Shown here: one piece after another, positions 16,021 to 17,003 of the stretch
Layout: each line of letters begins with the position of its first letter
Position numbering within the stretch: position 1 is the first letter of the stretch
Source of the DNA: an uncultured Chlorobiota bacterium
GTDB taxonomy: Bacteria > Bacteroidota > Ignavibacteria > UBA10030 > UBA6906
NCBI GenBank assembly: GCA_900696645.1
Contig: CAADGV010000013.1
Span: forward strand, 1 to 30,206
Reading direction: 5' to 3'
DNA length: 30,206 nucleotides
Notes under the pieces: generated by a model
What the model was told of the DNA's origin: nothing
The model's database searches: none
Seen by the model: only the letters and a program-made list of their open reading frames with translations
Program-made: the position numbers and the translations under genes

Positions 16021-16132
16021 CATTGCGAGGAGTCCCGACTTGTCGGGACGACGAAGCAATCTCGTTTGTCTTTTCAGATTCAGGGGTGGGATTGCTTCGT
16101 CCCGCCGAACAAAGGCGGGACTAGCAATGACG
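16021..16132. repeat. MITE/REP-like long inverted repeat (CATTGC...GCAATG)
   Basis: The element begins CATTGCGAGGAGTCCCGAC and ends GGCGGGACTAGCAATGACG. Its two halves are imperfect inverted copies: each has an outer CATTGC, a nested palindrome (GTCCCGAC-TT-GTCGGGAC on the left, CCCGCC...GGCGGG on the right) and an inner GACGAAGCAATC box. Elements of this form with CGAAGCAATC boxes are common dispersed repeats in environmental bacterial genomes. No transposase is encoded, so it would be moved in trans. Confidence 0.7.
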
Positions 16133-16178
16133 CGTAAACTGGCTCTTTCTTCACCTGTTAGCCTCGTTAAGCAGAGGC

Positions 16179-16243
16179 GAAGAATCCAGAGATTGTTGCG
16201 CTGTTCCGGATTCTTCATCCGCCTTCGGCGGATTCAGAATGAC
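16179..16243. repeat. Second REP-like element (GAAGAATCC...GGATTCTTC)
   Basis: GAAGAATCC (16179-16187) is repeated in inverse as GGATTCTTC (16208-16216), followed directly by the hairpin ATCCGCC-TTC-GGCGGAT (16217-16233) and CAGAATGAC. This is a different family from the element at 16021 but equally typical of non-coding dispersed repeats. Confidence 0.6.
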
Positions 16244-16324
16244 GGTGCACGTCAAAATAAGGCATCACCCAAAGCAAGTTGCTTTCCACAACGAAATTCA
16301 TTAACCTAATGAGGAAATTTTTAG

Positions 16325-16388
16325 GGACGCTTAGCTCAGTTGGTCTAGAGCGTCCCGTCTCGTATGAGACGGGAAGGTCACTGGTTGA
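16325..16388 (+). pseudogene. Defective tRNA-Val copy with hairpin in place of the anticodon arm
   Basis: The acceptor 5' strand, D-arm and base 26 are identical to the intact tRNA-Val at 16652; with flanks this is a 32-bp direct repeat (16323-16354 and 16650-16681). In place of the 17-nt anticodon arm is a 22-nt segment forming a 9-bp stem TCCCGTCTC/GAGACGGGA with GTAT loop. The variable loop and first T-arm bases match again (GAAGGTCACTGGTT), then similarity ends and no 3' acceptor strand follows. It cannot fold as a tRNA. Positionally it is the left flank of the GIY-YIG gene. Confidence 0.75.
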
Positions 16389-16413
16389 AGGCAGCGGTAA
16401 ATACAGAACATCA

Positions 16414-16675
16414 ATGTACTTTGTGTACATCATTTTTTAGTGAAAGTCTGAATCGTTATTACGTTGGACATACGGATGATCTTGGCCGGAGACTTGAGCA
16501 GCACAACACAGGACGTTCCCAATACACAAAAGGCGGAACACCGTGGTCAATGCAGTATGTTGAGCCATACGATTCAAGGTCGGCAGCGATGAAACGCGAG
16601 TACGAGATCAAGTCCCGCAAGAGCAGAAAGTACATCAACAAGCTTATTCAGGGACGCTTAGCTCAGTTGGTCTAG
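16414..16675 (+). CDS. GIY-YIG nuclease-family protein, frameshifted, ending inside tRNA-Val
   Basis: A small single-domain GIY-YIG protein of about 86 residues. From the ATG at 16414 the frame reads MYFVYIIF then stops within a run of six T. Skipping one base there continues as SESLNRYYVGHTDDLGRRLE, then QYTKGGTPWSMQYVE and AAMKREYEIKSRKSRKYINK. The features expected of the fold are present: Y-V-Y-I first strand, YYVG second strand, catalytic Arg in GRRLEQHN and Glu in MKREYEIK. The last codons (GRLAQLV) are translated from the tRNA-Val gene, and the stop is the TAG at 16673 in its D-loop. The single T insertion may be mutation, slippage or a sequencing error. It sits between two tRNA-Val copies, suggesting a tRNA-targeting mobile gene. 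Confidence 0.75.
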
Positions 16676-16726
16676 AGCGTCTGCCTTACAAGCAGAAGGT
16701 CACTGGTTCGACTCCAGTAGCGTCCA
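16652..16726 (+). tRNA. tRNA-Val (anticodon TAC)
   Basis: A complete 75-nt cloverleaf. Acceptor stem GGACGCT/AGCGTCC pairs 7 of 7. D-stem GCTC/GAGC encloses a loop with the invariant GG. Anticodon stem TCTGC/GCAGA holds loop CTTACAA with anticodon TAC. The variable loop is AGGTC. T-stem ACTGG/CCAGT encloses TTCGACT. The discriminator is A and a full CCA end is not encoded. Its first 24 bases overlap the end of the GIY-YIG reading frame. A defective copy lies 327 bases upstream and a fragment 106 bases downstream. Confidence 0.95.
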
Positions 16727-16741
16727 CAAGCATCCCGCCTT

Positions 16742-16766
16742 ATCCCGACAAACAGCGTGTCGGGAT
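16742..16766. terminator. Hairpin just after tRNA-Val, possible terminator
   Basis: ATCCCGACA (16742-16750) and TGTCGGGAT (16758-16766) form a perfect 9-bp stem with a 7-nt loop, 15 bases after the tRNA. The following TCTCATT is only a weak T-tract. The TCCCGAC/GTCGGGA core recurs in the MITE-like element at 16021, so this may be a repeat unit as much as a terminator. Confidence 0.45.
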
Positions 16767-16769
16767 TCT

Positions 16770-16829
16770 CATTCCGACATCGAAGTTAGCGCAAGATCAG
16801 GCGCGTGTATGCTAACTTCGGTCGGAATG
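16770..16829. repeat. Long near-perfect inverted repeat
   Basis: The left arm CATTCCGAC-AT-CGAAGTTAGC (16770-16790) and right arm GCTAACTTCGGTCGGAATG (16811-16829) pair over 19 bp with a two-base bulge, enclosing a 20-nt loop. It lies directly between the intact tRNA-Val and the tRNA-Val fragment at 16832. It has no T-run after it and looks like a small mobile palindrome. Confidence 0.65.
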
Positions 16830-16831
16830 GA

Positions 16832-16853
16832 ACAAGCAGGAGGTCACTGGTTC
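16832..16853 (+). pseudogene. tRNA-Val fragment (anticodon loop to T-arm)
   Basis: Twenty-two bases match the intact tRNA-Val from the anticodon loop through the variable loop into the T-arm (16688-16709), with one mismatch (G at 16840). The neighbouring bases on both sides are unrelated to tRNA. It is most simply a leftover of a former tRNA copy or of insertion of the long palindrome into one. Confidence 0.6.
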
Positions 16854-17003
16854 CTCCGAAGGAGTTCCTTCCCCGTTTGATCTGCTTTCTTTTTCTGTGA
16901 TGTGAAAAGTACATTCCCCCTCATTCATCAAGATCCCCGCCCCCACGAGCGTGGGAGCAGGGCTTGCGTGCAGTCGATCTCCGAACCCGTTGATAACTCC
17001 CTG

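Follow-up and report, generated by a model that had tools for sequence, protein, structure and literature searches.

We found that a small GIY-YIG nuclease gene lying among copies of tRNA-Val in the window (the whole stretch of DNA analysed here, 30,206 nt) is best read as a decayed copy of a minimal mobile element that homes into tRNA genes and is made of one small nuclease gene and a piece of tRNA, a reading to which we give a probability of about 0.7. At loci of this kind the gene and its tRNA lie on the same strand, element-free sites occur in related genomes, tRNA remnants lie around the unit in a consistent geometry, hairpins stand at their loops, nuclease lineages are sorted by tRNA isotype, and tandem copies are found.

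Between 16323 and 16864 the window holds, on the forward strand, a damaged tRNA-Val copy, a small GIY-YIG gene, an intact tRNA-Val(TAC), a palindrome and a third tRNA-Val fragment, so that every part listed in a preliminary description of this DNA could be located in the sequence. The intact tRNA-Val(TAC) occupies 16652-16727 (ARAGORN; Rfam tRNA, 75 bits). To its left, a 5' remnant at 16325-16354 corresponds to tRNA positions 1-30 and matches the intact copy at 100% over 30 nt; in place of the remnant's anticodon arm there is a short GC hairpin, TCCCGTCTCGTATGAGACGGGA (16353-16374, an inverted repeat with a folding z of -4.6), after which the remnant resumes with AGGTCACTGGTT (16375-16386, tRNA positions ~44-56) and ends in the T loop at GGTT. 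The nuclease gene follows at 16414-16651. Beyond the 3' end of the intact tRNA lie a long palindrome (~16770-16829, to which no strand applies), the third fragment (16832-16853, tRNA positions 37-58) and, immediately 3' of that fragment's GGTTC and thus at the T-loop position, another hairpin, CTCCGAAGGAG (16854-16864). The direct repeat described as flanking the gene over 32 bp exists and is a little longer, 35 nt at 97% identity (16320-16354 and 16647-16681), with a spacing of 327 nt. Upstream, at 16032-16240, the window also carries short GC palindromes, TCCCGACTTGTCGGGA, TCCCGCC...GGCGGGA and ATCCGCCTTCGGCGGAT, within larger repeated foldbacks; some of them start straight after TTC, like the hairpins of the tRNA remnants, and they may belong to a general palindrome family of these genomes.

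Pfam recognises a GIY-YIG domain in the window gene (PF01541, E 1.9e-13), in agreement with the preliminary description, which had not noticed that the gene is broken. The GIY half starts at ATG 16414, reads MYFVYIIF and stops at TAG 16438-16440, and the YIG half belongs to an ORF at 16364-16675 whose frame differs from it by one base at a run of six Ts (16433-16438). This second ORF enters the tRNA-Val, whose D loop supplies its stop codon (TAG 16673-16675). Judged from the reading frames, the window gene is either a broken copy or the product of a sequencing error at the six-T run. In an alignment of 24 relatives Y4, Y15, G17, R25, H29 and E61 are invariant; Y4, Y15, G17, R25 and E61 are of catalytic type, and the window copy has its first catalytic-type Tyr in the wrong frame. 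The related ORFs are mostly ~80-160 aa long, with little beyond the nuclease domain, and the GIY-YIG gene is the sole gene of a unit of ~330 nt, which contains no recombinase gene.

We searched for tRNA-Val in two genomes of the same genus, G001 and G002 (the window's own genome being G000). G001 has one intact tRNA-Val, without insert and with window-like flanks on both sides: the left flank of the window abuts the tRNA directly (37/46 identical), and the right flank follows the tRNA (63/72 aligned columns). When the window is joined across 16325-16651, 173 of 194 aligned columns are identical to G001, which is the empty site that the preliminary description had suggested looking for. At the corresponding locus of G002 there is no nuclease gene, and the palindrome and third fragment are present as a longer 3' remnant with hairpins. 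Since G002 has this part without the gene, the part is older than the gene insertion, and the third tRNA-Val fragment would be an older duplication common to G002; the left part of the palindrome is also found in G001, and the entire palindrome in G002. Element-free alleles at the same site were seen at further loci of the G000/G001 pair. The elements at tRNA-Gly and tRNA-Asp of G000 (L004 and L005) have no counterpart in G001 (L129 and L194), and the element at tRNA-Cys of G001 (L043 vs L125) is absent from G000. Single differences of this kind could be losses, because precise recombination between the 35-nt repeats also recreates an empty site. The orthologous tRNA-Ser(GCT) loci of G000 (L007) and G001 (L039) have nucleases from separate lineages, suggesting turnover at a single target.

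The arrangement seen in the window is not a chance one, given that six of the seven stand-alone GIY-YIG genes of its genome adjoin tRNAs, within ~100 nt and on the same strand. The tRNAs concerned are Leu, Ser, Gly, Asp, Val and Ser, and on the other side of each of the six genes there is a damaged copy of the adjoining tRNA or of its terminator. We then counted small GIY-YIG genes by locus in 41 genomes of the order, where they split into two branches, class A and class B (support 100). Class B loci adjoin a tRNA in 53 of 58 cases, compared with 1 of 32 in the sister class A (Fisher p 8e-18, with loci that are related and so are not independent trials). The five class B exceptions comprise two at contig ends with tRNA pieces and three that form a special clade. 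A cross-phylum sample independent of the order survey, 84,980 species scanned with one protein as query, gave 43 loci, about 34 of them adjoining a tRNA, in Bacteroidota, Cloacimonadota, Neomarinimicrobiota (Fidelibacterota), Omnitrophota, Zixibacteria, Balneolota, several Patescibacteria groups and others. With both surveys pooled, gene and tRNA share the strand in 86/86 tRNA-adjacent loci, which again are related loci and not independent trials. The class A versus class B contrast and this strand rule led us to reject chance adjacency. The excess of small GIY-YIG genes near tRNAs that had been anticipated in the preliminary description is thus borne out, and its proposal of a tRNA-targeting mobile unit gains support from the element-free site in G001, the three further present/absent loci and the class B excess. 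Phages were rejected as the main home of these genes, a phage collection having given distant matches only (32-48% identity). One class A GIY-YIG gene (L035:1480-1716) has tRNA-Asn at a distance of 174 nt on one side and a 3' tRNA fragment (57-76) on the other, possibly an independent origin of the same arrangement.

The nuclease lineages follow the isotype of the tRNA. On the tree of the order set, 13 changes account for 11 isotypes (the minimum being 10), where shuffles need 32 or more; with other phyla included there are 30 changes for 14 isotypes, where shuffles need 60 or more. The alignment behind these trees is short (77-78 columns) and leaves many forks unresolved. The Val nuclease of the window groups loosely with a Val element of Balneolota.

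The remnants are arranged in a regular way around the unit. Across the pooled loci, those on its left are 5' tRNA pieces in 36 cases and 3' pieces in 3, and those on its right are 3' pieces in 39 cases and 5' pieces in 5. This geometry, with the intact copy kept, fits the earlier suggestion that the tRNA had been regenerated. The clearest case is L039, where a host tRNA-Ser is split at 35/36 with an intact tRNA-Ser and the gene between its halves: tRNA positions 1-35 come first and the intact tRNA-Ser with the gene next, followed by positions 36-58, 58-74 and 74-91 with hairpins between them, and an anticodon-loop hairpin is common to both remnants. Break positions peak 17-19 nt from the tRNA 3' end, at GTTC^GA in the T loop (31 of 218, against ~10 expected if uniform), and a second excess lies at both ends of the anticodon stem, the whole arm being replaced by a hairpin. 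A loop-only account of the breakpoints was rejected: pooled D-loop and anticodon-loop counts are near chance, and the excess lies in the T loop and at the stem ends. Among the inserts between neighbouring remnant pieces, 30 of 39 fold better than shuffles (z below -2), a total that overstates independence because a few tandem copies recur in it. A hairpin TCCCGA...TCGGGA, with interiors that differ, takes the place of the tRNA stretch ~52-59 in tRNA-Asp loci of Ignavibacteria, Neomarinimicrobiota and Cloacimonadota. The motif GTTCNA is kept in 80/85 intact tRNAs vs 12/43 3' remnants, and most of these 12 are long (30 nt or more) and broken upstream of the T arm instead. At least two gene copies stand in tandem at L065, L086, L095, L098, L051, L070 and L136, several of them alternating with tRNA fragments, and at the tRNA-Asp locus of G002 a second copy begins at the contig end. 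At another locus of that genome (L130, G002:C129) a tRNA-Gly is followed by tandem repeats of its own 3' fragment, with a long hairpin replacing the T loop and no nuclease gene before the contig ends.

We hypothesise that the target of the nuclease would be one loop of a tRNA gene that matches its isotype and carries no element. In many lineages the cut would fall in the T loop (GTTC^GA), in others in the anticodon loop or the D loop. The break would then be repaired from a DNA that bears the element, which would bring in the gene along with part of a tRNA and leave one complete tRNA. The displaced part of the tRNA would persist beyond the unit as a remnant, in which a short hairpin would have destroyed the cut site and may have a protective role. 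The hairpin alone does not explain self-immunity, since the intact tRNA keeps the presumed target in 80 of the 85 loci.

A relative of the tRNA-associated elements bears on what the nuclease might recognise. In a sister clade (L063, L066, L075, L174-L181, L185, L186) a class B gene lies away from tRNAs between terminal inverted repeats, TTYACCCCGTGAGATA ... TATCTCACGGGGTRAA. These repeats flank the gene in 8-9 dispersed loci, some of them inside protein genes; the interrupted genes include tyrosine recombinases, an ORF6N-like gene and two nuclease-like genes, as judged from frames read by inspection. In L179 a compensating change is found in both repeat arms (CCCCGTTAG / CTAACGGGG). The junctions, TTCA|A and TTTA|C, point to a target-site duplication of 0-1 nt when read by eye on the element-bearing copies alone. 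Gene-less palindromes with these repeats were rejected as an abundant repeat family; as they occur at only 4 sites in 98 genomes, the sister clade is low-copy. From its sequence organisation it looks like a small transposon-like relative of the tRNA-associated elements.

This relative sits within a palindrome of inverted repeats, and hairpins swap whole tRNA arms at the tRNA loci, so an SLX1/UPF0213-type nuclease could instead act on hairpin or cruciform DNA, with elements entering the loops of any foldback. Because the domain is nearest by sequence, among solved structures, to UPF0213 proteins (1zg2, E 1.8e-16), 1ywl and SLX1, a structure-sensing nuclease is a serious alternative or addition to the homing reading. 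As an account of the whole we consider it unlikely, the isotype-specific lineages implying sequence recognition. A wider and quite tentative idea, to which we lean somewhat more readily, is that small GIY-YIG proteins move the elements that encode them into loci able to form foldbacks (tRNA genes by isotype, and protein genes for the inverted-repeat elements of the sister clade), leaving hairpins at the cut loops, in which case the nuclease alone would be the mover of a transposon-like family across phyla.

Local tandem duplication, by which a resident gene and its tRNA would have been duplicated by ordinary recombination and the spare tRNA would have decayed with nothing mobile involved, draws on the existence of tandem units (L065, L086, L095, L098) and on the duplicated terminators, which are host-specific. 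At tRNA-Asp the duplicated copy of the terminator matches that of the host itself, and this fits local duplication as well as import. Such a process accounts poorly for related genes beside at least 11 tRNA isotypes, with a sorting by isotype that holds across genera and phyla, for four element-free sites, and for remnants that are broken at loops and whose 5' and 3' pieces complement each other from either side of the unit, and we regard it as improbable. Less credible still is a nuclease that serves or defends the host (in tRNA processing, or like an anticodon nuclease) and is kept beside tRNAs for co-expression. Co-transcription would be consistent with the 86/86 co-orientation and with stop codons that fall within the tRNA downstream of the gene; this reading is contradicted by the uneven occurrence of the gene inside a single genus, by its disrupted copies (the window and ORFs with internal stops) and by the damaged copy of the neighbouring tRNA found at most loci. 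That the loci are what is left of islands driven by an integrase, or of group I introns, with the GIY-YIG gene as sole survivor, is the least probable of all and both forms were rejected, for although integrases classically target tRNA genes and GIY-YIG enzymes are common among intron endonucleases, the GIY-YIG gene stands alone in a unit of ~330 nt without recombinase, the Rfam gathering search found tRNAs only and no group I intron in the 24 loci scanned, an intact tRNA is present, and the place of insertion differs between loci, being the D, the anticodon or the T loop.

The elements do share features with these known systems. Like tRNA-site integrative elements (phages, ICEs, satellites), they lie in a tRNA gene, retain an intact copy and leave the displaced fragment on the far side. 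Those elements restore the tRNA 3' end, whereas here 5' as well as 3' versions occur, without integrase, in units of ~330 nt and with hairpin-broken remnants. As with group I introns that carry GIY-YIG genes in tRNA genes, a GIY-YIG gene lies within a tRNA locus, but no intron RNA is found here and the tRNA is continuous beside the gene. UPF0213 / YhbQ-like proteins and SLX1, the best sequence matches to these nucleases among solved structures, are known as stand-alone or repair proteins and not as tRNA-bound elements, and class A, found in the same genomes and not beside tRNAs, is a branch separate from class B.

The homing reading finds its nearest parallel in SegB, described in the SegB passages of PMC13096335 (citing Brok-Volchanskaya et al. 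2008) as a free-standing GIY-YIG homing endonuclease of T-even phages that cuts inside phage tRNA genes at the motif RAWTSGAAC and, in phage T6, causes tandem amplification of the tRNA together with its own gene. The reverse complement of this motif, GTTCSAWTY, would equal the tRNA T-loop consensus, an equation that is ours and not that of the SegB passages of PMC13096335. In T4, segB and tRNA-Arg share the strand, and the gene ends 5 nt short of the tRNA; the tRNA strand of the 71.0-72.5 kb region of T4 (L200) contains the reverse complement of RAWTSGAAC four times. The elements described here resemble SegB in being GIY-YIG, outside introns and beside tRNA genes on the same strand, and in having tandem copies of tRNA and gene, as in the amplification reported for SegB in those passages. 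They differ in being chromosomal, with ORFs of ~80-160 aa that are mostly the domain alone, where SegB is a phage protein of 221 aa that has, C-terminal to the nuclease domain, an additional DNA-binding part. They also show split tRNA remnants with hairpins, unlike SegB, and they are sorted by tRNA isotype, where the SegB passages of PMC13096335 report no isotype preference. A comparison by hhalign for kinship with SegB aligned 18 columns, covering the first motif only, at a probability of 2.6%. The elements thus appear to act in the manner of SegB, as free-standing homing endonucleases do, and, by the tests made, are not members of the SegB protein family. A search of the open-licence full-text literature turned up no account of GIY-YIG elements that are chromosomal, sorted by isotype and accompanied by hairpin-broken tRNA remnants.

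If the homing reading is true, a family of ~330-nt selfish elements lives in the tRNA genes of many bacterial phyla and has so far gone unnoticed; it would have been overlooked because the genes are annotated, if at all, as generic GIY-YIG and the remnants are missed by tRNA finders. The family would provide natural nucleases sorted by tRNA isotype, and it would represent a route into an essential gene without breaking it. It would also be a genomic counterpart of the recently described tRNA-amplifying phage nuclease SegB, and it makes testable the question of why broken tRNA copies have hairpins exactly at the loops of the cloverleaf.
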